From: an uncultured Porphyromonadaceae bacterium
GTDB taxonomy: Bacteria > Bacteroidota > Bacteroidia > Bacteroidales > Muribaculaceae
Direction: 5' to 3'
NCBI GenBank assembly: GCA_947175495.1
Contig: CAMWNB010000017.1
Location: 1-43,797, forward strand
DNA: 43,797 nt
Below the pieces are notes generated by a model that ran no database searches, was not told where the DNA came from, and was given only the letters and a program-made list of their open reading frames with translations. Of this stretch, positions 18,506 to 42,024 are shown piece after piece. The position numbers were made by a program, and so were the translations under genes. Position 1 is the first letter of the stretch. The number at the start of each line of letters is the position of its first letter.

Positions 18506-18538
18506 CGGTGAATGAGAAAATCCATAAAAACACCCTAT

Positions 18539-19582
18539 ATGAAACGAATTATCTTGATTCTCGTAGCGGCCGTCGCACTGACGTGGACGGCACAGGCACA
18601 GGAAAAGCGCACCGCCGTGCAGGTGGCCGGCATCGCGTTCTACAACCTCGAGAACCTTTTCGACACAATCCCCAACAATCCCGAAGGCCGCGACGCCGAG
18701 TACACACCCGACGGCAAGAACCAGTGGGACGGCCGCAAGTACCGCAACAAAATCAACAACATGGCCTACGCCATCTCGCAGCTCACCACGAAGTACACGC
18801 CCTATGGCCCCGCCATCATCGGTGTCAGCGAGATTGAGAACCGCAGCGTGCTCGAAGACCTCGTGGCCAACGAAGCCATCGCCAAATGGAACCTGCAGAT
18901 CGTGCACCACGATTCGCCCGACGCACGCGGCGTCGATGTGGGCCTGCTCTACAACCCCCGCTACTTCAAGGTGGAAAACGCCACGCACCACCGCCTCCAC
19001 GCGGTGCCTTTCCGCACCCGCGACCAGACGTGCGTCGTAGGCTCGCTGATGGGCCAGCGCATCGCCGTCATCGTCAACCACTGGCCCTCGCGCCTCGGCG
19101 GCCAGGAGCAGTCGTCGCCCAACCGCGAGGCCGCTGCCGCGCTCAGCAAGCAGATCGCCGACTCGCTCTGGACTGTCGACCCCAACATCGGCGTCATCAT
19201 CATGGGCGACCTTAACGACGACCCCCAGGACACCTCGTGCGCCAAGGTGCTCGGCGCCAAGCGCGATATAAAGGACGCTACTGCCCACGGCTTCTACAAC
19301 CCCTTCTGGAAGATTCTTGACCAGGGCATCGGCACCCTCGCCTACAAGAGCTCGTGGAACCTCTTCGACCAGATAATTCTCTCCGGCAACCTCGCCGAGG
19401 CTCCCGCCGACCGCTGGCACTTCCAGCGCGCCATCGTCCACAACCACGACTTCCTCAAGGACAAGGAAGGCTCGCGCCAGGGCTATCCCAAGCGCACCTT
19501 CTCTGCCGGCAGCTATCTCAACGGCTACTCCGACCACTTCCCCACCGAAGTGATTCTCGTCCGCACGGTCGAGCGCAAGTAA
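18539..19582 (+). CDS. secreted endonuclease/exonuclease/phosphatase-family protein
   Basis: A 347-residue EEP-superfamily hydrolase (DNase I/phosphodiesterase fold). MKRIILILVAAVALTWTAQA is a signal peptide, so it acts outside the cytoplasm. Catalytic blocks are all intact: FYNLENLFDTI (Asn, Glu), IGVSEIENRSVL (Glu), ARGVDVGLLYNP, VIVNHWPSRLGG, IIMGDLNDDPQD (GDxN) and NGYSDHFPTEV (SDH). The substrate is a phosphodiester, perhaps extracellular nucleic acid. An in-frame ATG at 18512 would add nine residues before the signal peptide. I prefer 18539 because it gives a normal signal peptide. It heads a unit with envC, a flippase, an SDR and phoH. Confidence 0.85.
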   Translation: MKRIILILVAAVALTWTAQAQEKRTAVQVAGIAFYNLENLFDTIPNNPEGRDAEYTPDGKNQWDGRKYRNKINNMAYAISQLTTKYTPYGPAIIGVSEIENRSVLEDLVANEAIAKWNLQIVHHDSPDARGVDVGLLYNPRYFKVENATHHRLHAVPFRTRDQTCVVGSLMGQRIAVIVNHWPSRLGGQEQSSPNREAAAALSKQIADSLWTVDPNIGVIIMGDLNDDPQDTSCAKVLGAKRDIKDATAHGFYNPFWKILDQGIGTLAYKSSWNLFDQIILSGNLAEAPADRWHFQRAIVHNHDFLKDKEGSRQGYPKRTFSAGSYLNGYSDHFPTEVILVRTVERK

Positions 19583-31211: not shown

Positions 31212-31553
31212 ATGTCTACATTCCTTTTTCTTCTTCTTTTCTTTTTTGTGTTGTTGCCCCTCGGGCGCATTGGCTGGGCTATGTGGCGCCAGTACAGGCT
31301 TATAAAGCGTCATATGCGCCAGGCCGAGGAGTTTCGCCGTGCTTTCGAGGGCGCGGCAGGGCAGGGCGGACGCCCGGAGGAGCCGCAGCCGGCTCCGCGC
31401 AAGAAAAAAATCGCAGGGGATGTGGGCGAATATGTCGCCTTTGAAGAGGTGCGTGTGTACAATTCCGAATCCGACACTGCCGCAGAGACGGGCTCCACGC
31501 ATGTGAAAGCCGAAGCACAGGTGGAGGATGCCGACTGGGAGGAGATAAAGTGA
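31212..31553 (+). CDS. DUF4834-like single-pass membrane protein
   Basis: A 113-residue protein of unknown function. One long N-terminal membrane helix (STFLFLLLFFFVLLPLGRIGWAMW, residues 2-25) is followed by a basic stretch (RLIKRHMRQAEEFRRAF), a Pro/Lys-rich linker, and an acidic C-terminus ending with DADWEEIK. This layout matches the small DUF4834 family of Bacteroidota. I chose the ATG at 31212; an in-frame GTG at 31188 would add eight residues. It follows pssA and overlaps the DUF2461 gene by one base (TGATG). Confidence 0.75.
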   Translation: MSTFLFLLLFFFVLLPLGRIGWAMWRQYRLIKRHMRQAEEFRRAFEGAAGQGGRPEEPQPAPRKKKIAGDVGEYVAFEEVRVYNSESDTAAETGSTHVKAEAQVEDADWEEIK

Positions 31554-32230
31554 TGGCACGGGTGAAGCTGCATCCCGCATTTTCGTTTCTCCGCCGTCTG
31601 GCCGAGAACAATGACCGCGCATGGTTTAACGCGCACCGCGCCGAGTACGACGATGTGCGCCAACAGTGGCTCGCCGAAGTGGACCGCATGATTGCGCGCC
31701 TTGCATTGAGCGATGCGCGCGTGGCCCGCGTGACTGCCAAATCGGCCGCCTACCGCATATATCGCGACACGCGGTTTTCGCCCGACAAGTCGCCGTTCAA
31801 GACGTATTTTTCGGCCGCCGTGCATGTGCAGGGACGCCGCGACGAGCGCGCCGGCTACTATCTGCAGTTCGACGAGCGCGCAGGCGAGGGCGGTCTGTAC
31901 TCCGGCATGTACTGTCCGGACAGCGCGCAGCTGCGCAAGATGCGCCACGCCATAGTCGACAACATCGAGGAATTCCGCGAAATCATCAATGCTCCCGATA
32001 TGGTGCGCGTATATGGCGACGCATGGGTGGGACCGCAGCTTAAGACAGTGCCGCAGGGTTGGCCGAAGGACCACCCCGACGCCGACCTGCTGCGTCTGAA
32101 ATGCTATGGCAAATACAGCGAACAGAGTCCGGCTTTCTTTTCGCGCCCGTCGTGGCCGGAGGAGGCAGCCGACATGCTTGCCGTCAGCCGGCCCCTGATC
32201 GACTTCATCAACTACTCCCTCGACGAGTGA
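31553..32230 (+). CDS. DUF2461 (TIGR02453-like) protein
   Basis: A 225-residue soluble protein of the DUF2461 family, whose biochemical role is not known to me. Diagnostic blocks are FSFLRRLAENNDRAWFNAHRAEYDD, YRIYRDTRFSPDKSPFKTYFSAAVH, GYYLQFDERAGEGGLYSGMYCPDSAQLRKMRHAI, and LKTVPQGWPKDHPDADLLRLKCYG. The start is the ATG at 31553, which overlaps the preceding stop by one base. It ends the phospholipid-gene unit. No terminator hairpin with a T-run is obvious after it. Confidence 0.85.
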   Translation: MARVKLHPAFSFLRRLAENNDRAWFNAHRAEYDDVRQQWLAEVDRMIARLALSDARVARVTAKSAAYRIYRDTRFSPDKSPFKTYFSAAVHVQGRRDERAGYYLQFDERAGEGGLYSGMYCPDSAQLRKMRHAIVDNIEEFREIINAPDMVRVYGDAWVGPQLKTVPQGWPKDHPDADLLRLKCYGKYSEQSPAFFSRPSWPEEAADMLAVSRPLIDFINYSLDE

Positions 32231-32478
32231 GAGACAAGGCCTGCGTGGGGTTGTGTGCCCACATAGGCGGCGCCGTGCGCGTTTTGTTCGCCGGGCAGGA
32301 TTGAAATTGGCAGAATGTCGTGATGTGGGGGTGAGGAAGGCGTAGCGCTTGCATTTTGCGTACAAAAACCTCTTCAGATTTGCGAATCCGGCTCATTTAT
32401 GTGGCTAATTGCTTGAGGCTACCGCTCGGCCGTATGTTAAAAAACGCGCGCGCGTATTATAGATTGGATTTTTTTAAG
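32231..32478. other. intergenic region upstream of the TonB-receptor promoter
   Basis: This gap contains no gene-like frame. It includes a CGCGCGCGCG run at 32445-32454 next to A-rich sequence and becomes AT-rich toward the promoter. No operator-like palindrome is apparent. Confidence 0.4.
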
Positions 32479-32486
32479 TATATTTG
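32479..32486 (+). promoter_or_regulatory. -7 box of the TonB receptor-lipoprotein operon
   Basis: TATATTTG lies 86 bases before the ATG at 32573. A -33 TTG at the right spacing is not visible, which may mean dependence on an activator or an alternative sigma factor. Confidence 0.45.
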
Positions 32487-32489
32487 ACG

Positions 32490-32518
32490 GCTGTTTGCCT
32501 GCCTTCCCGGCAAGCGGC
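32490..32518 (+). promoter_or_regulatory. stem-loop at the predicted 5' end of the receptor mRNA
   Basis: GCTGTTTGCC (32490-32499) pairs with GGCAAGCGGC (32509-32518) over ten base pairs, including two G-U pairs, around a nine-base loop. It begins four bases after the -7 box, so it would be the extreme 5' end of the transcript. It is likely to stabilise or regulate the mRNA. Confidence 0.55.
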
Positions 32519-32572
32519 ATTTCGATACGATAATTTTTTTAAATTTATATCTGTATAACACCTTTAACACGT

Positions 32573-35350
32573 ATGAGACTAAAACTGTTTCTACTGATGC
32601 TGCTGGCGTCGACATTGGCGATGACAGCACAGACCTCTGCGCTCACAGGCGTGGTGGTCAACGGCACCTCGGGCTCTCCCGTCGGAGGCGTTACCGTGGA
32701 GATTAACGGCGTGAAGGCCGTGACGGGTTTCAACGGCGATTTCAGCCTTAAGGGTCTGAATGCCGGCCCGGCATATGTTGTAATCACCGCCGAGGGCTAC
32801 GAGCCGGTGGGCATGGATGTCCAGGTGAACGGCTCCGAGCTCAACCTCGGCACGGTGAAGATGACGCCCGTAGCCGAGAACGCTGTCGACGAGTACTTCG
32901 GCAACAACGACGACCTTATGTTTGACGAAACGGCTCTCGACGATGAAGAAGGTGTGAGCCAGGGCGTCTCGTCGCTGATGGGCGCCAACGACAACATCTA
33001 CTACAGCACGGCCAGCTACAATTTCGGCCCGATGTACTTCAACTATCGCGGCTACGACAGCCAATACCAGAGCGTATATATCGACGGCGTCAAGTTCAAC
33101 GACCCCATCCGCGGCCGTTTCAACTTCAATTCGCTGCTCGGCATGAGCTCGCGTGCTTTCCGCAACCGCACCAACACTGTGGGCCTTTCGGCTTCCAACT
33201 ACGGTTTCGGCGACATCGCAGGCTCGACCAACTACAACACCACCACCGACCTCTATGCTCCCGGCTTCAACGGCTCCGTGGCATTCTCCAACAGCAGCTA
33301 TCTGCTGCGCGCCATGGTCACGTATTCGTCGGGCGTGAACAAACACGGCTGGGCCTACACCGTCAGCGCCATCGGCCGCTATGCCAAGGAAGGCGTGCAG
33401 CCCGGCACATTCTACAATTCGGGTGGCCTCTTCTTCAGCCTCGAGAAAATTTTCAACGACAACAACAAGCTGACGCTCACCGCATTCGGCGGTCCCACGC
33501 AGCGTGCTACAGGCGGCGCCACCTATCAGGAGGTGTACGACCTCACCGACGACAACCTCTATAACCCCTTCTGGGGCTGGCAGGACGGCAAGAAGCGTTC
33601 CAGCCGCATAACGGAGACATTCGACCCGACCGTGATTCTCAACTGGCTGTGGGGTAAAGGCAACACCACGGTGAACACCGCGGCGGCTTTCCGCTACACG
33701 CACTACACTCGCAGCGCACTGCAGTATTTCAAGGCCAACGACCCCAACCCCACCTACTACCGTTATCTGCCCTCCTACTATCTGGACGACAATGACCAGC
33801 CCACCGAGCAGAGCGAGTACTACACATGGCTGTGGAAGAACGACGATAGCTTCCGCCAGATCAACTGGGACAACCTCTACGGCATCAACCGCCTCAACAA
33901 CATCCAGAACGAGAACCTCAGCGACGCCGACAAGAAAGGCTCGAGCTACATCCTGGAAAACCGCACCAACAATCAGGTGCAGGCCCTGCTCAACAGCTAT
34001 GTGAACACCCGTCTGAGCAATGTGGCATCGCTGCAGGGCGGCGTTGACTTCAACTACACGCGCCAGAGCAATTACAAGACCATCCGCGACCTGCTGGGCG
34101 GCGAGTTCTGGACCGACGTCGATCCCTTCTCCGACCGCGACATCACCATCGCCCCGGACAACCTGCAGAACGACCTCGACAACCCCAACCGCCGTGTGGT
34201 GGTAGGCGACAAGTTCGGCTACGACTACGACTACAACTACATCAACACGGGCCTGTGGGCTCAGACTGTGATCAACCTGCCCAAATGGGACATCAACGTG
34301 GGCGCCCGCATGAACTACACCAACTTCTACCGCGAAGGCTACATGCGCAACGGCCGCGCTCCCGAAGTGGGCGAGAACGGCTCGAAGGGCAAGAGCAAGA
34401 CGCTCGACTTCCTCACCGCAGCTGTTAAGGCCGGCTTCACCTACAAGCTCAACGGCCGCAACCAGTTCGTGGTGCAGGCCGAGTATGGCTCGCGCGCTCC
34501 TCTGGCCGACAACGTGTTCATCGCTCCGCGCGTGAAGAACACCACCATCGCCAACCCCGAGGCTCAGATCGACTTAAGCGTCGACGCATCCTATGTGTGG
34601 AACTACCGCCGCTTCCGCGGTTCTATCACCGGCTTCTACACCAACATGTCGCACGCCGTTGAGCGCACCGGCTTCTACGACGAGCAGTACAACACCTACG
34701 CCATCTACGCCCTCGAAGGCGTGAAGCGCGAGTACAAGGGCGTGGAACTGGGCATGGCCTACAAGATCACTCCCAGCATCACCGCTACCTTCGCAGGCAC
34801 CTACGCCCGCTTCCAGTACAAGAACAATCCTCTGGGCACTCGTTCGTTTGAGAACGGTCTCTATCCCGACGTGTCCAACACCGTTTACCTCAAGAACTAC
34901 TATCTGGGCTCGACGCCTCAGAGCCAGTTCAACGTAGGCATTGACTATGCCGCTCCCAAAAACTGGTTCTTCAACCTGAACGGCACCTGGCAGGGCGACG
35001 CCTATGTGAACCTCTCGCCGGCATACCACGAAGCAATGCCCGGCCTGGCCACGATGTACCCCACGGAGGCTGAAATCCTTGCGAAAATTGAGGAACTTGC
35101 CCACCAGGACAAGCTCGACTCGCACTTCACCCTCAACTTAAGCGTCGGCAAGGCCATCTACCTGCGCAAGGGTCCGAGCCTCAACTTCAACCTCAGCATC
35201 AACAATGTGCTCAACAACCGCGACGTCGTCACCTACGCCTACCAGCAGGGTCGCGTCGACACGAAGAACTACGACCGCAACGCCTACCCCAACCGCTACC
35301 AGTACGCGCAGGGCATCCGTCTGTTCTTCAACTTCGGTGTGCGCTTCTGA
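32573..35350 (+). CDS. TonB-dependent outer-membrane receptor without a SusD partner
   Basis: A 925-residue TonB-dependent transporter. A signal peptide (about 1-20, ending AMTAQ) is followed by a carboxypeptidase-regulatory-like domain (about 22-98: ALTGVVVNGTSGSPVGGVTVEINGVKAVTGFNGDFSLKGL), an acidic linker, a plug (about 120-240, with YFNYRGYDSQYQSVYIDGVKFNDP and GFGDIAGSTNYNT), and a large beta barrel ending with LFFNFGVRF, whose terminal Phe is typical of outer-membrane barrels. It should move a bound ligand into the periplasm using TonB energy. No SusD-like gene follows. Instead, two modular surface lipoproteins come next, 34 bases downstream. This suggests a ligand other than a typical polysaccharide. 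Confidence 0.92.
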   Translation: MRLKLFLLMLLASTLAMTAQTSALTGVVVNGTSGSPVGGVTVEINGVKAVTGFNGDFSLKGLNAGPAYVVITAEGYEPVGMDVQVNGSELNLGTVKMTPVAENAVDEYFGNNDDLMFDETALDDEEGVSQGVSSLMGANDNIYYSTASYNFGPMYFNYRGYDSQYQSVYIDGVKFNDPIRGRFNFNSLLGMSSRAFRNRTNTVGLSASNYGFGDIAGSTNYNTTTDLYAPGFNGSVAFSNSSYLLRAMVTYSSGVNKHGWAYTVSAIGRYAKEGVQPGTFYNSGGLFFSLEKIFNDNNKLTLTAFGGPTQRATGGATYQEVYDLTDDNLYNPFWGWQDGKKRSSRITETFDPTVILNWLWGKGNTTVNTAAAFRYTHYTRSALQYFKANDPNPTYYRYLPSYYLDDNDQPTEQSEYYTWLWKNDDSFRQINWDNLYGINRLNNIQNENLSDADKKGSSYILENRTNNQVQALLNSYVNTRLSNVASLQGGVDFNYTRQSNYKTIRDLLGGEFWTDVDPFSDRDITIAPDNLQNDLDNPNRRVVVGDKFGYDYDYNYINTGLWAQTVINLPKWDINVGARMNYTNFYREGYMRNGRAPEVGENGSKGKSKTLDFLTAAVKAGFTYKLNGRNQFVVQAEYGSRAPLADNVFIAPRVKNTTIANPEAQIDLSVDASYVWNYRRFRGSITGFYTNMSHAVERTGFYDEQYNTYAIYALEGVKREYKGVELGMAYKITPSITATFAGTYARFQYKNNPLGTRSFENGLYPDVSNTVYLKNYYLGSTPQSQFNVGIDYAAPKNWFFNLNGTWQGDAYVNLSPAYHEAMPGLATMYPTEAEILAKIEELAHQDKLDSHFTLNLSVGKAIYLRKGPSLNFNLSINNVLNNRDVVTYAYQQGRVDTKNYDRNAYPNRYQYAQGIRLFFNFGVRF

Positions 35351-35384
35351 TAGATTCTCCTCACACATATATATAATATAAGCA

Positions 35385-37136
35385 ATGAAGAAATCGCTCT
35401 TATATATCGCAGCCGCCGCTCTCAGCTCCGTAGCCCTCGGCGCATGCGACGACGACATGGCCCTGCCGCCCATCGCCGAACCCGAATCGGAATGGGTGGG
35501 TATGGAGAACACAACTGTCGAACAGGTGAAAACCGACTACTGGCAGGACGTCAACAACTACAACACACCCGTCAACCTCAATGAGAACGAGGAAGAAATC
35601 ATCCTCAAGGGACGTGTGATCAGTTCGGACGCCACCGGAAATATCTACAACAACCTTGTGGTGCTCGGCGAAGACGGCTATGCCATGACCATCGCCGCCC
35701 GCACCGAAAGCAGCTCCAAAAAGCTGGCCGACCAGTATCCCTTCGGCTCCGAGGTGTACCTCAATCTGTCGGGTCTCAGCGTGGGCCGCTACGCAGGTCT
35801 CTTCCAGGTGGGCGCCCCCAGCGGCACGGAAATCACCTTCCTCACCAACGCGGTGCTCGTGGAGCATCTGCAGGCCAACAGCATCGGCTATCCCTCGAGC
35901 GTCGAGCCTCTGGTGGTCGACATCGCCACCCTCACCGAGGCCAAAAACTCCACCGAGGGTCTGCGCAAATACATGAGCCAGCTCATCCGCATCGACGGCG
36001 TCACATTCCAGAACGCCGGCAAGCCCTTCGCTGCCACCGCCACCGAGAACCAGTATGTGACCGATGCTGCCGGTGCCCGTATCAACGTGCGCTGCAGCAA
36101 CCGCGCCACCTGGCACAACGACATCATCCCCGGCGGCGCCGGCTCCGTGGTCGGTATCCTCAGCTATTTCAACAACGACTGGCAGATACTGATGAACGAC
36201 GCAGCCACCGACCTTATCGACTTCGACCCCTCCGCCATTCCCGGCCCCGCTCCTGAGGTTGACCCCGAAGGCGACGGCACCGCCGCTTCGCCCTACAACG
36301 TGGCAGCCGCCCTCAAGGTGATTGCCGCAGGTCCCGCCAGCACCGAGGTGTATGTGAAGGGTATAATCACCAACCTCAGCATCGACACCAGCTACGGCAA
36401 CGCCACCTACGACCTCGTGGACGTGATTGGCGGCGAGAGCGTCAAGGCTTACCGTGGCTACTGGTTCAACGGCGACCGCTTCACCGCTACCGACCAGATG
36501 CAGAACGGCAAGGAAGTCGTCGTGTGCGGCGTGCTTGAGAACTACATGGGCAACACTCCCGAGATAAAGCAAGGCAACAAGGTCGTGAGCTACGACGGCA
36601 AGACCTCCGACGACAGCTCCACGGATCCCACGCCCGACCCCACTCCTTCCGACGCCATCTACTCGGAGACCTTCCAGGGCGGCACGCTCGGCGACTTCAC
36701 CGTCGAGAACAAAATCTCCAACGACTACAGCGGCTGGTATGCCAAAACCTCCAACCCTGCCTGCGCCATTGCCAACAGCTACACCAACAGCGTGAATCTC
36801 GAGGCCGAGAGCTGGCTGATCTCGCCTGAAATCGACCTCGCCGGCTGCACCGGCATCAGCATGAGCTTCAAGCAGGGCTTCGGCTTCGACTTCCCCACCG
36901 AACAGGACGAATTTTATGTGGTGAAAGTGCAGGCCGACGGCGGCGACTGGACCGACCTCACATGCACGGTGTTCCCCGAAAAGGGCAGCGGCAACTGGAC
37001 CAGCATGGGCGAGAACAAGTTTGACTTCGACGCTTATGCCGGCAAGAAAATCCGCGTGGCCTTCGTCTACAAGAACGACGGCACCAAGAGCCGCGCATGG
37101 GAGATCCAGGACTTCCTCGTGACGGCTTCCAAGTAA
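35385..37136 (+). CDS. modular surface lipoprotein: DUF5689-like, OB-fold-like, choice-of-anchor-J-like
   Basis: A 583-residue lipoprotein. The lipobox LGAC places the lipidated Cys at 21, and the following DDD is an acidic lipoprotein-export signal, predicting exposure on the cell surface. Residues of about 43-282 are DUF5689-like (TVEQVKTDYWQ, IILKGRVISSDATGNIYNNLVV, MSQLIRIDGVTFQN, GSVVGILSYFNNDWQILM). Residues of about 300-404 are OB-fold-like (ASPYNVAAALKVIAAG, VYVKGIITNLSID, VVVCGVLENYMG). A DPTPDPTP linker leads to a choice-of-anchor-J-like jelly-roll domain (428-582). That last domain is nearly identical to one in the next gene. I infer ligand capture for the upstream TonB receptor. 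Confidence 0.82.
   Translation: MKKSLLYIAAAALSSVALGACDDDMALPPIAEPESEWVGMENTTVEQVKTDYWQDVNNYNTPVNLNENEEEIILKGRVISSDATGNIYNNLVVLGEDGYAMTIAARTESSSKKLADQYPFGSEVYLNLSGLSVGRYAGLFQVGAPSGTEITFLTNAVLVEHLQANSIGYPSSVEPLVVDIATLTEAKNSTEGLRKYMSQLIRIDGVTFQNAGKPFAATATENQYVTDAAGARINVRCSNRATWHNDIIPGGAGSVVGILSYFNNDWQILMNDAATDLIDFDPSAIPGPAPEVDPEGDGTAASPYNVAAALKVIAAGPASTEVYVKGIITNLSIDTSYGNATYDLVDVIGGESVKAYRGYWFNGDRFTATDQMQNGKEVVVCGVLENYMGNTPEIKQGNKVVSYDGKTSDDSSTDPTPDPTPSDAIYSETFQGGTLGDFTVENKISNDYSGWYAKTSNPACAIANSYTNSVNLEAESWLISPEIDLAGCTGISMSFKQGFGFDFPTEQDEFYVVKVQADGGDWTDLTCTVFPEKGSGNWTSMGENKFDFDAYAGKKIRVAFVYKNDGTKSRAWEIQDFLVTASK
36915..36961 (+). repeat. 47-bp block identical to 39218-39264
   Basis: Within the choice-of-anchor-J-like domain, 47 bases are identical to 39218-39264 in the next gene. 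The surrounding about 460 bases (36666-37130 and 38964-39430) are also very similar. This points to domain duplication with recent exchange. Confidence 0.85.
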
Positions 37137-37177
37137 AACGAAACCTCATTGTGAACAAAACAGCAATCACATCGAAT

Positions 37178-39937
37178 ATGAACAAGATAAAATCATACGC
37201 AAAGGCATTCGCCGTAGCTGCAGTCGCCGCAATGGGTTTCACCGCCTGTCAGGACGACTTCGACACCCCGAATCTGCCCGTGCCCGAAGCCACCAAGCAG
37301 GCCAACTACACGCTTGCCCAGGTGAAGGCCCTCTACTGGCAGGAAGAAGCCAACTATGCCCACACCGTGACCGAGTGGGGCGACCTGCAGGAGCATAAAG
37401 CCGACTCCGCTGCCGCTCTCAACACCGACCTGCCTCGCCTGCAGGCCGGCGAGCACATCGTCGTGAAAGGTCGCGTCGTAAGTTCCGACGAGGCCGGCAA
37501 CGTGTTCAAGAGCCTCGTCATCGACGACGGCACCGCGGCCCTTCCTTTCAGCATCAACCGCTACAACCTGTATCTGAACTACCGTGTGGGCCAGGAAATC
37601 GTCATCGACCTCACCGGCATGGACATCGGCAAATACAATGGCTACATGCAGGTGGGCAAAATGGACTTCTACGAGGCCGGCAACGCCTGGGAAGTGTCGT
37701 TCATGGCCCCGGAGACCTTCACACGCGGCTCCGAGCTCAACGGCCTGCCCGATGTGTCGAAAGTCGACACCCTGCAGATCAACAGCTTCGACCAGATACC
37801 CGCCACGCCGGCCGGCCTGCAGACCTACCAGGGCCGCCTCGTGCGCTTCAACAACGTCGAGTGGCAGAACGGCGGTGTGGAGACTTATTCCACCTACCAC
37901 AGCAGCGGCGTGAGCCAGAACATCATCGACGTCAACGGCCAGACCCTGGCAGCACGCACCAGCGGCTACTCCAACTTCTGGAACCAGACGCTGCCCGAAG
38001 GCCGCTGCGACGTGGTCTGCATCCTGGGCTACTACAGCTCGGCATGGCAGCTCACTCTCATCGACGGCAACAGTAGCATGAACATCGGCAATCCCACCGC
38101 CCAGCCCGGCGGCGAGAGCAACCCCTACAGCGTGGCCGAGGCCATCGCCGTGCAGGCAGCCGGCACCGCTCCCGTATCGGCCGTATGGACCGAAGGCTAC
38201 ATCGTCGGCACCGTGGCTCCCGAGGTGGAGGAAGTAAAGACCAACGAAGACATCGAATGGGGCAGCGACCCGATGCTGGCCAACACGGTTGTCATCGGCT
38301 CCAACCCCGACACCAAGGACATCGCCGACGCTATCGTGATCGCCCTGCCCGCCGGCAGCGTGATGCGCGAGTACGTCAACATCCAGGGTCATCCCGAAAA
38401 CTTCGGCAAGAAACTGGCCGTGCGCGGCATCCTGGCCTCCTACATGGGCACCTTCGGCATCACCGGCAACAACGGCACCGCTTCCGAGTTCCATCTCGAG
38501 GGCGTGGAGATTGGCTCCGGCATCCCCGCCGGCAACGGCACGCAGACGTCTCCCTACAACCCCGAGCAGGTAATAGCCGTGAATCCCACGTCTAACACCG
38601 AGGCTCCCGAGGGATATTCCAGCGTATGGGTGAAAGGCTATATCGTAGGCTCCATGCCCGCCGACGGCACCTATATTGACAAGACCATCTTCGGCACTGC
38701 CGCCGAACTCAAGACCAACATCGTGCTGGGTCCGACACCCGACTGCACCGATGCGTCGAAGTGCATCGGCATCCAGCTGCCCAACAACAACATCCGCACG
38801 GCGCTCAACCTCATGGACAACCCCGGCAACCTCGGCAAGGCCGTCAGCGTGCTCGGCGACGTGATGAAGTACTGCGGCGGTCCCGGCGTGAAGAACCTCA
38901 CCAACTATGTGCTCGAGGGCGGCGATCCCACACCCGATCCCGACCCCGTCGGCTCCACGCTCTACAGCGTGAGCTTCCAGGACGGTTCGCTCGGAGCATT
39001 CTCCGTCGAGAACAAGATTGAGAGCACATTCACCGGATGGTACGCCAAGACCTCCACGCCTCCCTGCGCCATGGCCAACAGCTATGTGGGTGGCGTTAAC
39101 GTGGCTGCCGAGAGCTGGCTCATCTCCCCGACCATCAACCTGTCCGCCTGCACCGGCGTCGGCATGAGCGTGAAGATGGGCTGGGGCTTCGACTTCCCCA
39201 CCGCGCAGGACGAATATTATGTGGTGAAAGTGCAGGCCGACGGCGGCGACTGGACCGACCTCACCATCACCAACTTCCCCGCAAAGGGCACAGGCAACTG
39301 GACGAGCATGGCCGAGAACAAGTTCGACATCGCCGCCTACGCCGGCAAGACCATCCGCGTGGCTTTCGTCTACAAGAACGACGGCTCCAAGAGCCGTGCG
39401 TGGGAGCTGCAGGACTTCACCATCACCGGCTCGGGCAATGCCGTCATCGGCGGCACTGTCACTCCCGACCCCGATCCCACTCCTGATCCCGACCCCACAC
39501 CCGATCCGGACCCCACGCCCGGCAGCGACGTGACGGTGAATGCCTCTGATTTCACCATCAGCGGTTCTACCGGCACCGCCACAGCGGGCGCCTATACCCT
39601 CACCCTCGACAAAGCCACCGGCACCACCAATCCTCTGTACCACGCCGGCACAGGCGCCATCCGCCTCTACAACGGCGGCACGCTGACCGTCAAGGGCGCA
39701 GGCATGACCAAGATTGTGATTACGCTGGCCAGCGACGCCGGCTTCCGCTACACCACCTTCACGCCCAGCACCGGCACCATTGAGCCCGCACAGGCCGCCG
39801 GCGACAAGAGTATCACATGGGTGGGCGACGCATCGGAAGTCACTTTCACCGTGGGCGCACAGGCCACGATGGGCTCCGACGGCGAATCTGCCAAGGGCCA
39901 GATCCGCTTCACCGCTGTCGACATCACCGCGAAGTAA
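37178..39937 (+). CDS. large modular surface lipoprotein: DUF5689-like, two OB-fold-like, choice-of-anchor-J-like and C-terminal beta domain
   Basis: A 919-residue lipoprotein. Lipidated Cys24 is followed by QDDFD, an acidic surface-export signal. Modules, by eye: DUF5689-like (about 45-305), OB-fold-like 1 (315-445, SNPYSVAEAIAVQAAG, VWTEGYIVG), OB-fold-like 2 (455-582, VWVKGYIVG, CIGIQLPNNNIRTALNLMDNPGNLG), choice-of-anchor-J-like (594-751), a DPDPTP repeat linker (762-784) and a C-terminal beta domain (785-919) shared with the secreted protein at 15354-16451. Both OB-like modules resemble DUF6359. I chose the ATG at 37178 for its clean signal peptide; upstream in-frame codons lie inside the previous gene. 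It probably acts with the TonB receptor at the surface. Confidence 0.82.
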   Translation: MNKIKSYAKAFAVAAVAAMGFTACQDDFDTPNLPVPEATKQANYTLAQVKALYWQEEANYAHTVTEWGDLQEHKADSAAALNTDLPRLQAGEHIVVKGRVVSSDEAGNVFKSLVIDDGTAALPFSINRYNLYLNYRVGQEIVIDLTGMDIGKYNGYMQVGKMDFYEAGNAWEVSFMAPETFTRGSELNGLPDVSKVDTLQINSFDQIPATPAGLQTYQGRLVRFNNVEWQNGGVETYSTYHSSGVSQNIIDVNGQTLAARTSGYSNFWNQTLPEGRCDVVCILGYYSSAWQLTLIDGNSSMNIGNPTAQPGGESNPYSVAEAIAVQAAGTAPVSAVWTEGYIVGTVAPEVEEVKTNEDIEWGSDPMLANTVVIGSNPDTKDIADAIVIALPAGSVMREYVNIQGHPENFGKKLAVRGILASYMGTFGITGNNGTASEFHLEGVEIGSGIPAGNGTQTSPYNPEQVIAVNPTSNTEAPEGYSSVWVKGYIVGSMPADGTYIDKTIFGTAAELKTNIVLGPTPDCTDASKCIGIQLPNNNIRTALNLMDNPGNLGKAVSVLGDVMKYCGGPGVKNLTNYVLEGGDPTPDPDPVGSTLYSVSFQDGSLGAFSVENKIESTFTGWYAKTSTPPCAMANSYVGGVNVAAESWLISPTINLSACTGVGMSVKMGWGFDFPTAQDEYYVVKVQADGGDWTDLTITNFPAKGTGNWTSMAENKFDIAAYAGKTIRVAFVYKNDGSKSRAWELQDFTITGSGNAVIGGTVTPDPDPTPDPDPTPDPDPTPGSDVTVNASDFTISGSTGTATAGAYTLTLDKATGTTNPLYHAGTGAIRLYNGGTLTVKGAGMTKIVITLASDAGFRYTTFTPSTGTIEPAQAAGDKSITWVGDASEVTFTVGAQATMGSDGESAKGQIRFTAVDITAK
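39218..39264 (+). repeat. 47-bp block identical to 36915-36961
   Basis: Partner of the repeat in the upstream lipoprotein gene, inside the choice-of-anchor-J-like domain. Confidence 0.85.
39464..39525 (+). repeat. tandem DNA repeat encoding a Pro-Asp-Pro-Thr linker
   Basis: Imperfect copies of a GATCCCGACCCCAC-like unit encode the linker DPDPTPDPDPTPDPDPTP between two extracellular domains. Shorter versions occur at 36625-36655 and 38927-38950. Copy number could vary by slippage, altering spacer length. Confidence 0.75.
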
Positions 39938-39956
39938 GAATCCACTCCCCTTATAG

Positions 39957-39993
39957 AAAATCGGCGACTCCATCCGGGTCGCCGATTTTTTTT
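39957..39993 (+). terminator. terminator of the TonB receptor-lipoprotein operon
   Basis: AAAATCGGCGAC (39957-39968) pairs perfectly with GTCGCCGATTTT (39978-39989) and is followed by further T. It lies 20 bases after the lipoprotein stop. Confidence 0.9.
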
Positions 39994-40002
39994 GTAAAAA
40001 AC

Positions 40003-40033
40003 TTGCATAACTAAAATATTAGTTATACCTTTG
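40003..40033 (+). promoter_or_regulatory. blaI promoter
   Basis: TTG (40003-40005), a 20-base spacer and TACCTTTG (40026-40033). The spacer is almost entirely filled by operator-like palindrome 1 (40007-40026). Confidence 0.7.
40007..40026. promoter_or_regulatory. operator-like palindrome 1 for the BlaI-type repressor
   Basis: ATAACTA-AAATAT-TAGTTAT, seven-base arms around a six-base centre, occupies the spacer between -33 and -7. A near-copy follows at 40041-40058. Placement and duplication fit autorepression by the BlaI-type protein encoded at once downstream. Confidence 0.7.
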
Positions 40034-40040
40034 CTGCATC

Positions 40041-40058
40041 AACTAAAAGATTAGTTAT
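40041..40058. promoter_or_regulatory. operator-like palindrome 2 for the BlaI-type repressor
   Basis: AACTA-AAAGAT-TAGTT plus AT repeats the 18-base sequence of palindrome 1 with one mismatch. It lies from just after the predicted transcription start to the first two bases of the start codon. Confidence 0.7.
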
Positions 40059-40437
40059 GGCAAGCAAAACAAAACGACTTACCGAGAAAGAGGCTCCCAT
40101 CATGAGCATGCTCTGGGAGCACGGGCCGATGTTCGTGCGCGAGATGCTGCCGCACTACGACGAGCCGCGCCCGCATGTGAACACCGTGTCGACCATCGTG
40201 CGCATCCTCGAGGACAAGGGCTATGTGGCCCACGAGGCCGTGGGCGGCTCGCACCGCTATTATGCCGTGGCCATGCCCGCCGACTTCCGCGAGCGCTCGC
40301 TGGCGCAAGTGGTGAAAAACTATTTCAACAACAGCTATGCTTCGGCCGTGTCGGCTCTCGTGGAGGAGGAGAAAATCTCCGTCGACGAGCTGCGGCGCAT
40401 CATCGACATGGTGGAGCAACGCAATAAACCCTCTTGA
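40057..40437 (+). CDS. BlaI/MecI-type transcriptional repressor
   Basis: A 126-residue winged-helix repressor of the BlaI/MecI/CopY family. The N-terminal DNA-binding domain (LTEKEAPIMSMLWEHGPMFVREMLPHY, then RPHVNTVSTIVRILEDKGYVAHEAVGGSHRYYAV) is followed by a helical dimerisation part (ERSLAQVVKNYFNNSYASAVSALVEEEKISVDELRRIIDMVEQ). In this family a membrane M56 partner signals proteolytic release of the repressor. That partner is encoded three bases downstream. Two matching palindromes around its own promoter (40007-40058) indicate autoregulation. A beta-lactamase target gene is not present here, so the regulon may be cell-envelope stress. Confidence 0.92.
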   Translation: MASKTKRLTEKEAPIMSMLWEHGPMFVREMLPHYDEPRPHVNTVSTIVRILEDKGYVAHEAVGGSHRYYAVAMPADFRERSLAQVVKNYFNNSYASAVSALVEEEKISVDELRRIIDMVEQRNKPS

Positions 40438-40440
40438 ATC

Positions 40441-42024
40441 ATGCCCTCACTTTTTGCCTATAGCCTTTATTCAGGTCTGTTCCTGCTGGCAGGATATCTG
40501 GCCTACCGCGCCCTCCTCGCTTCCGAAAAGCAGCCGTCGCTCAACCGCGCTGCGCTGCTGGGCTTGTATGTCGTGGCGCTGCTTGCGTTGCCGGTTGCTG
40601 CCGGCCTGGCAGCCCTGCGTCCTGTCCACGTCGCCCCGGCGGGAGTGGCAATTGATCTGACGGCGATTGCGGTGGCCGTCGCGGATGCGCCGCGCGCGCA
40701 GTGGCAGGAGTGGCTTCCGATGGTTGTGTGGGCCTACGCCGCCGGCGCGGCGGCCGTGGTGTTGCGCACGCTGTGGGGCTACGGCCGGCTGGTGCAGCTG
40801 ATTGTGCGCGGTCGCCACGAGCGCCGCGACGACTACACGCTCGTGGTTCTTCCCGAGGCAGTAGTGCCTTTCAGTTTCATGCACTATATTGTAATCGGCG
40901 AGGCCGACAGTTGCCGTGCCGACATGATGGTGACGGCCCACGAACTCGGCCACCTGCGCTGCCGCCACTGGATTGACCTTGTGCTGGCGCAGGCCGTGTG
41001 CGCGCTCATGTGGTACAACCCGGCCGCATGGCTCATGCGCTCGGAACTGCGCCGCGTGCACGAATACCAGGCCGACGCCGCCGTGCTGGGCAGTGGCTTC
41101 GACGCGCGCTCCTATCAGATGCTATTAATAGAAAAGGCTGCCGGCGTAAGATTGCAGTCGCTCGCCAACAGCCTTGATCACAGTAATCTTTCAAAACGTA
41201 TCACTATGATGTACAAACAAAACAATGGGGCTGCGCGCCGCCTGCGCGTGCTCGCCCTCGTGCCGGCCCTGGTGCTGGCCGCATTCGCTGCCGGACAGCC
41301 GGCCGTGGCAGCCACACTTTCGGCCGTCAAAAGCCTTACGATGGCGGCGGCTCCCGCCGCCACGGCTTCGGCGGCAGCCACTATCGACAGCAAAGTTACG
41401 GAAAAAACCGAAACTGCACAACCCCGTCCCGCTCAACTGCCTCGCTACAAGGGCGGAGAAGGTGCGATGTTCTCCTACCTCGCAGGCAACATCCGCTATC
41501 CCGAGGAGGCCGTGAAGGCCGGCAAGCAGGGCCGCGTGCTGGTCAAGTTCACCGTGCAGCCCGACGGCCGGGTGACCGACGTTGAGATAGAACGCGGCGT
41601 GGACCCGGCGCTCGACAAGGAGGCCGTGCGCGTCATCTCCGCCATGCCCGCGTGGGAGCCCGGTCTCGACGAGGCCGGCAAGCCCGTGGCCTGCGCCTAT
41701 GCGCTGCCCGTCACCTTCAAGCTCGCAGGCGGTGAAAAAAGCAAGACAGAAGAACCGAAGGCCGCTCTCGTGGCCGTGGCCGGAGAGAAAGGCGATAAAG
41801 CCACTGCCGACGGTGCCGAGCTCGACAACGTTGTGGTCATCGGCTACAACGGCATTGCCAAAGTCGCCACAGAGAAGCCCGTCATCTTTATAGGCGGCAC
41901 TCTGTACGAAGGCGACCTCAGCAGCATCGACCCGAACCGGATCGAGAGCATCACAATACGCAAGGACGACCCGAAGTACCCTACAGGCGTAGTGGATATC
42001 ACCCTCAAGGAGAAAAATCAATAA
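40441..42024 (+). CDS. BlaR1-like M56 metallopeptidase fused to a TonB C-terminal domain and a plug-like tail
   Basis: A 527-residue membrane protein. Four hydrophobic segments in the first 300 residues (about 7-25, 38-58, 92-110 and 268-290) frame an M56 zinc protease domain with HELGH at 167-171 and a downstream Glu/His/Asp set (RRVHEYQADAAVLG, 205-217). A TonB C-terminal-like domain occupies about 336-428 (IRYPEEAVKAGKQGRVLVKFTVQPDGRVTDVEIERGVDPALDKEAVRVISAMPAW). The last 65 residues (LDNVVVIGYN, then VIFIGGTLYEGDLSSIDPNRIESITIRKDDPKYPTGVVDITLKEK) resemble the plug start of TonB receptors. No penicillin-binding domain is present. It should sense an envelope signal and act on the BlaI-type repressor. 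Confidence 0.87.
   Translation: MPSLFAYSLYSGLFLLAGYLAYRALLASEKQPSLNRAALLGLYVVALLALPVAAGLAALRPVHVAPAGVAIDLTAIAVAVADAPRAQWQEWLPMVVWAYAAGAAAVVLRTLWGYGRLVQLIVRGRHERRDDYTLVVLPEAVVPFSFMHYIVIGEADSCRADMMVTAHELGHLRCRHWIDLVLAQAVCALMWYNPAAWLMRSELRRVHEYQADAAVLGSGFDARSYQMLLIEKAAGVRLQSLANSLDHSNLSKRITMMYKQNNGAARRLRVLALVPALVLAAFAAGQPAVAATLSAVKSLTMAAAPAATASAAATIDSKVTEKTETAQPRPAQLPRYKGGEGAMFSYLAGNIRYPEEAVKAGKQGRVLVKFTVQPDGRVTDVEIERGVDPALDKEAVRVISAMPAWEPGLDEAGKPVACAYALPVTFKLAGGEKSKTEEPKAALVAVAGEKGDKATADGAELDNVVVIGYNGIAKVATEKPVIFIGGTLYEGDLSSIDPNRIESITIRKDDPKYPTGVVDITLKEKNQ

Follow-up and report, generated by a model that had tools for sequence, protein, structure and literature searches.

What does a TonB-type receptor import when its operon supplies two modular lipoproteins in place of a SusD partner? 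The question is raised by contig 17 (CAMWNB010000017.1) of the 2.34 Mb genome of an uncultured Porphyromonadaceae bacterium (assembly GCA_947175495.1); the whole stretch of 43,797 nucleotides analysed is referred to as the window. On its forward strand, genes for the receptor, lipoprotein A, and lipoprotein B follow each other with intergenic gaps of 34 and 41 bases (Table 1). All three genes listed in an earlier note on this DNA are confirmed, with the start of lipoprotein B set, by its lipoprotein signal, at 37178 and not at the listed 37097. The note also stated that no characterised function was known for this combination, and here it overlooked the transformation genetics of Riemerella anatipestifer, a bacterium of ducks (PMC8459023). 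We consider the operon, with moderate confidence, to be a module-expanded form of the Riemerella gene pair and probably a TonB-driven system for the import of nucleic acid, with DNA as the likeliest cargo.

The link to Riemerella comes from reciprocal comparison. The window receptor has a single match at E ≤ 0.001 in the genome of R. anatipestifer (strain CCUG25054; the RA0C locus tags are those of ATCC 11845), covering amino acids (aa) 19–925 with 31% identity and E = 4.3e-91. In the back-comparison, the receptors match each other with 28.7% identity (8.8e-98), and the Riemerella lipoprotein matches lipoprotein B (2e-17) and lipoprotein A (4e-11). The gene order in Riemerella is recA, polIV, sdhB, sdhA, sdhC, comEC, two genes, an EEP nuclease, the receptor, and the DUF5689 lipoprotein; receptor and lipoprotein are encoded on the strand opposite to the other genes. 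Frames of at least 100 aa were considered, so a shorter gene would be missed, and gene names outside PMC8459023 are our reading. Huang et al. (2021; PMC8459023), in the sections drawn on, tag RecA as RS04870, ComEC as RS04895, the receptor as RS04915, and the lipoprotein as RS04920, and counting in fives from RecA via ComEC leads to the same assignment. The domains agree with it: Pfam identifies comEC, EEP, and the receptor, the latter with an N-terminal CarboxypepD_reg domain as in the window, and the lipoprotein carries DUF5689 and choice-of-anchor-J. Judged by these comparisons, the window receptor is an orthologue of RA0C_RS04915.

The genetics of this pair carry most of the functional argument. 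According to the same sections, a screen of R. anatipestifer transposon mutants for natural transformation identified RA0C_RS04915, a carboxypeptidase-regulatory-like protein predicted to reside in the outer membrane, and RA0C_RS04920, a DUF5689 protein annotated as choice-of-anchor-J; they are predicted to form a single operon, and each is essential for natural transformation (PMC8459023). Markerless deletion of either gene makes transformation undetectable (about 4e-10), compared to 5.4e-5 in the wild type. That transformation is abolished when either gene is lost makes DNA the likeliest cargo. Deletion of tonBA or tonBB also lowers transformation in this species, in the excerpts consulted. 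As far as these sources go, it is already known that the pair is essential for transformation in one species, with a speculative mechanism (PMC8459023). What the present analysis adds, as far as the literature searched shows, is the variant with two module-expanded lipoproteins, the pairing across the class, and the link to a nuclease gene. In the open-licence literature searched, DUF5689 is named only in this transposon screen, and, the Riemerella papers aside, titles and abstracts mention no uptake of DNA by way of TonB; further literature was drawn on in part (PMC8383284, PMC7965970, PMC12566107, PMC5294843).

The three operon proteins were scanned against Pfam (to E = 1) and NCBIfam (to E = 0.1). 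At the Pfam cut-off, the receptor matches only CarboxypepD_reg (aa 24–89, E = 2.6e-9); a Plug match (aa 144–216, 17.4 bits, E = 0.0065) lies below the cut-off, as do OmpW and PEGA matches, and no NCBIfam family is found. The name "TonB receptor" follows from the protein layout and the weak Plug match. None of the three proteins matches SusC, SusD, SusE, or SusF in either database, so that the absence of a SusD partner, claimed earlier, holds at these thresholds. Compared with solved structures, the single receptor gives insignificant matches only, and the receptor profile matches only via about 80 N-terminal positions, e.g., an 85-residue chain named SusC homolog.

Generally, SusC/SusD importers consist of an outer-membrane receptor with a carboxypeptidase-regulatory-like N-terminus and a lipoprotein partner. 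The window operon shares this layout and differs in that its receptor does not match TIGR04056 (SusC/RagA) and its lipoproteins do not match SusD, SusE, or SusF. The likeness to the Riemerella pair is closer, including full-length receptor homology, the CarboxypepD_reg domain, a DUF5689/anchor-J lipoprotein directly downstream, and an EEP homologue nearby. Here, the differences are two lipoproteins instead of one, the additional modules (OB and DUF6359), the distance of the EEP gene (13 kb upstream), the 28–31% identity of the receptors, and the window system being known from its genes alone.

Both window lipoproteins carry, as had been proposed, acidic residues of the surface-export type after the lipid Cys (C-DDDMA and C-QDDFD) and a DUF5689 module (E = 1e-45 and 2e-42). 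Of 74 lipoproteins whose Cys falls within residues 1–75, 51 are acidic at two or more of the five positions that follow it. The two are the only DUF5689 matches in the source genome, and both also contain a choice-of-anchor-J domain (NCBIfam), which the earlier note did not list. The Riemerella lipoprotein (L216) passes the NF052645 model of the M949_1556 family (591 bits, cut-off 475); the window lipoproteins, which at 80 and 106 bits are far below the cut-off, share only the DUF5689 half of the model and have different middle modules. Within the genus, the lipoproteins are 38 and 47% identical to the window copies, compared to a median of 64% for the receptor (19 comparisons), and the number of middle modules per lipoprotein, counted with our own profiles, varies from none to five.

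Of the three OB-like copies claimed for these lipoproteins, one is upheld. The module of lipoprotein A (aa 321–407) is, by the sequences of its family, an OB fold of the nucleic-acid-binding kind: at E ≤ 1, PF01336, an OB family, is matched by 24 of 29 family members, the best with 3.5e-6, and the window copy itself matches PF01336 (E = 0.073) and PF13742 (E = 0.014) below the curated cut-offs. The DUF6359 modules of lipoprotein B find no support as OB folds, with OB matches in 0 of 30 members and a resemblance to the lipoprotein A module over 23 columns only. DUF5689 may possibly be an OB fold too (6 of 33 members match PF01336, best 0.0016), the profile comparison with the OB module giving a probability of 5%. 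Against solved structures, the single lipoproteins have no match and the DUF5689 and DUF6359 profiles no significant one; the OB-module profile hits two single-strand-binding proteins with insignificant E-values (0.35 and 0.48). OB folds occur also in proteins that bind ligands other than nucleic acid, hence, the fold alone leaves the cargo unsettled. Surface capture and uptake of nucleic acid, suggested earlier from the OB folds, is supported independently by the genetics of the homologous Riemerella pair, while the OB argument holds, by sequence, for one module only.

The receptor–lipoprotein pairing, to which the earlier note had pointed together with EEP nucleases, is conserved. Our set of 83 receptor loci comprises 18 of the same class (including L207), five others of the same order, 20 of the same genus, and 40 from an order survey, the latter selected among the 93 genomes with an orthologue according to their score and the space left on the contig; neither the window nor Riemerella belongs to this set, and L071, L103, L104, L106, L107, and L108 were dropped as having no receptor frame. 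The DUF5689 lipoprotein is directly downstream of the receptor in 82 of the 83 loci. As 42 loci were found through the lipoprotein, the estimate is unbiased only in the other 41, where the pairing holds in 40.

A divergent EEP nuclease gene within 1.5 kb upstream of the receptor is seen at 44 of the 83 loci (13 same-class, two other same-order, two same-genus, 27 order-survey); five of 82 loci had insufficient upstream sequence. An EEP gene is present in all 45 receptor-positive genomes tested and in three of seven receptor-negative ones. With one or two EEP genes per tested genome (fragmented matches counted once), adjacency to the receptor at this rate is, by our estimate, far beyond chance. 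In the window genus the gene is usually away from the receptor, and the window EEP shows 74 and 76% identity to those two EEPs of the genus that adjoin a receptor. Its scores with other receptor-adjacent EEPs are 219–375 bits (34–55% identity), and with second copies away from receptors at most 201 bits, a contrast that is small at the low end; non-adjacent copies near receptors show 37% (L102) and 52% (partial, L192). The nuclease has no match among solved structures. Huang et al. (2021) mention its Riemerella homologue RS04910 a single time in their main text, where its transcription is unchanged, and their model of DNA passage through the outer membrane, speculative in the sections drawn on, invokes an unidentified processing enzyme (PMC8459023), for which the EEP nuclease is a candidate. 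In one genome of the same order (G029, L203), comEC is adjoined by a second EEP gene in convergent orientation, a hint of a nuclease–ComEC link.

The distribution of the receptor was assessed in a phylum sample of 148 genomes, including the source genome, in each of which up to six candidates were scored. The receptor profile detects matches below 1e-30 in 47 genomes; 22 orthologues score 1009–1243 bits and all else at most 254, with 1243 bits for the source-genome receptor and 187 for the next candidate scored there. One orthologue (G170) is listed with an internal stop. The profile was built from 23 receptors, several of them from sampled genomes; nine genomes outside it still score at least 1009 bits. 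Besides the window, orthologues are found in 21 of 36 genomes of the same class and in 0 of 111 of other classes. The NF052645 model finds a DUF5689 lipoprotein in all 21 other receptor-positive genomes, and in the 126 receptor-negative genomes one weak fragment and five matches to the anchor-J half only. In the order survey, the receptor is present in 97 of 198 genomes at 1e-100, and in about half (93 of 198) at 435 bits or more; among these 93, nine genes are listed with one internal stop, and two genomes (G250, G354) have two receptor genes. For comparison, Huang et al. (2021) describe, in the portion consulted, homologues as widespread in Bacteroidetes, yet those of RS04915 in Flavobacteriaceae only (PMC8459023). 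In a tree of 84 receptors (those above 780 aa plus the window and Riemerella; quick method), the window genus groups together (21 rows, support 95), and same-class rows including Riemerella are interspersed with some of the same-order rows, the forks between them being weak, so that purely vertical descent is neither supported nor contradicted. Scans of viral contigs yield no relatives.

The proposed import would proceed as follows. The lipoproteins, predicted to be surface-exposed, would capture extracellular nucleic acid, most likely DNA, with their DUF5689, OB-type, and anchor-J modules, and pass it to the receptor barrel, where TonB energy would move the cargo over the outer membrane; TonB drive is proposed as it fits both the receptor type and the Riemerella tonB mutants. 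The EEP nuclease, presumably exported, would trim or convert the DNA, after which ComEC might take one strand, or the breakdown products might serve as food. By analogy with Riemerella, natural transformation may be a role of the operon in the source organism. An extension to the class as a whole (taken as Bacteroidia) is tentative: it is possible, though less likely than not, that TonB receptors, surface lipoproteins with OB-type modules, and the linked EEP nuclease form a pilus-independent DNA importer, common in the order and genus of the window, and that many members would prove naturally transformable once suitable conditions are identified.

Should DNA import be correct, it would matter in several respects. 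For the crossing of the outer membrane by DNA in such bacteria there is a speculative model (PMC8459023); the operon ties two proteins from the screen to a class-wide module, and the linked nuclease offers a candidate processing enzyme. In addition to conjugation and phages, gene transfer in such bacteria would have an entry route open to testing, and TonB-driven DNA import would be an unusual bacterial way of acquiring genes.

A number of observations weigh against import of DNA by this operon, or against transformation as its purpose. The Plug match is weak, and no TonB barrel family is listed for the receptor by Pfam. In one genome (G057) the receptor (L207) and the lipoprotein (L071) lie on different contigs. 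The lipoproteins are strongly acidic (isoelectric points 4.3 and 4.5), and thus poorly suited to holding a polyanion. ComEC and DprA, being near-universal, do not track the operon: ComEC matches are found in 34 of 36 genomes with the receptor and in all 23 without it (57 of 59), and DprA in all 59, the source genome included. The two receptor-positive genomes where no ComEC match is found are G017 and G026, and the ComEC matches of G155 and G032 contain in-frame stops (two and one, respectively), as does the dprA match of G155. The ComEC frame of the source genome (L210, contig 1) has 377 aa and misses the DUF4131 part, compared to 544–742 aa in seven matched same-genus relatives and 588 aa in Riemerella. 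A candidate Riemerella helix-hairpin-helix protein, whose gene is tentatively equated with RS02645, has matches in all 22 receptor-negative and only 17 of 35 receptor-positive genomes (including Riemerella), and in none of the nine genomes of the window genus. Finally, in the excerpts consulted, the effect of tonBB on transformation was put down to iron by its authors, and Flavobacterium johnsoniae, from a genus with a reported pair, was not transformed under the conditions tried. The ComEC gaps and stops, the short ComEC, the undetected helix-hairpin-helix homologue in the genus, and the acidic lipoproteins together favour a role wider than transformation alone.

Co-occurrence with ComEC, DprA, and HHH_3 (PF12836, matched in all 148 genomes) was rejected as evidence, being near-universal and uninformative. 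G155 (L208, L209), a small genome, retains the receptor, lipoprotein, and EEP frames despite its comEC and dprA stops. In G077 and G104 (L205, L206), the helix-hairpin-helix match adjoins comEC, which suggests a ComEA-like partner.

The same observations lead to the first alternative, a rather unlikely one in our estimate, that the proteins are a nutritional scavenger, importing pieces of DNA or RNA made by the EEP nuclease for phosphate and nucleosides, with Riemerella transformation using the same door. Retention of the operon in the four genomes with undetected or interrupted ComEC, the constant presence of the nuclease with the receptor, and the undetected helix-hairpin-helix homologue would all be expected of a scavenger; against it, no obvious nucleoside or phosphate uptake protein is seen by Pfam among the 27 window proteins scanned, and the Riemerella mutants were scored, in the sections available, by transformation and not by growth on DNA. 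A second alternative, in which the proteins take up a glycan or some other nutrient, or serve the envelope or as a surface antigen, with indirect loss of transformation in Riemerella, is improbable: it would suit the acidic lipoproteins and the M949_1556 family membership of the Riemerella lipoprotein (M949_1556, which may be the same gene as RS04920, being cited for antigenicity, pathogenicity, and O-antigen in the excerpts consulted), but is countered by the lack of SusC and SusD matches, the absence of glycoside hydrolases from the 27 proteins scanned, all of them encoded in the window, the linkage of the receptor to a nuclease gene, and the all-or-nothing transformation defect (PMC8459023). 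The work on the M949_1556 antigen and that on Riemerella transformation appear unjoined in the literature consulted.

Table 1. Positions in the window of the operon, its putative signals, and the EEP nuclease gene
Feature	Positions	Strand	Basis or description
EEP-family nuclease (PF19580), signal-peptide-like start, homologue of RA0C_RS04910	18512..19582	+	homology
Promoter-like -7 element TATATTTG	32479..32486	+	match to TAnnTTTG consensus
Leader hairpin	32490..32518	+	folding of 48-nucleotide leader
TonB-type receptor, 925 aa, orthologue of R. anatipestifer RA0C_RS04915	32573..35350	+	domain, homology, tree evidence
Surface lipoprotein A (predicted), 583 aa, homologue of RA0C_RS04920	35385..37136	+	DUF5689, OB module, choice-of-anchor-J
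A: DUF5689	35505..36203		
A: OB module	36345..36605		
A: choice-of-anchor-J	36660..37118		
Surface lipoprotein B (predicted), 919 aa, homologue of RA0C_RS04920	37178..39937	+	DUF5689, two DUF6359, choice-of-anchor-J
B: DUF5689	37424..38059		
B: DUF6359, first	38183..38503		
B: DUF6359, second	38624..38920		
B: choice-of-anchor-J	39032..39424		
B: extra C-terminal part			
Intrinsic terminator	39955..39991	+	folding, -23.2 kcal/mol, z = -5.1

The operon is framed by the signals proposed in the earlier note, which were recovered with different degrees of support. The -7 promoter consensus of Bacteroidota is TAnnTTTG, and the single promoter-like element fits it; the 170 bases preceding the start of the receptor contain the motif in 19 of 21 sequences (the window plus 20 relatives from its genus), and of the two exceptions one is truncated by a contig end. 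A scan for sigma-70-type promoters has no match at this site. The 5' stem-loop is found as a hairpin in the 48-nucleotide leader (-16.1 kcal/mol, z = -1.8, with 15 of 200 shuffles equally good), its sequence showing no conservation among the relatives compared. The terminator is strong by folding and is not listed by a simple terminator scan; an Rfam search of positions 31500–40200 gives no match. In the whole window, TAnnTTTG occurs 25 times, compared to 7.9 expected, and this excess indicates that the motif probably marks promoters of the source genome. Directly downstream of the operon, at positions 40057–42024, a BlaI-type repressor gene is followed by that of an M56 peptidase with a TonB C-terminal domain.

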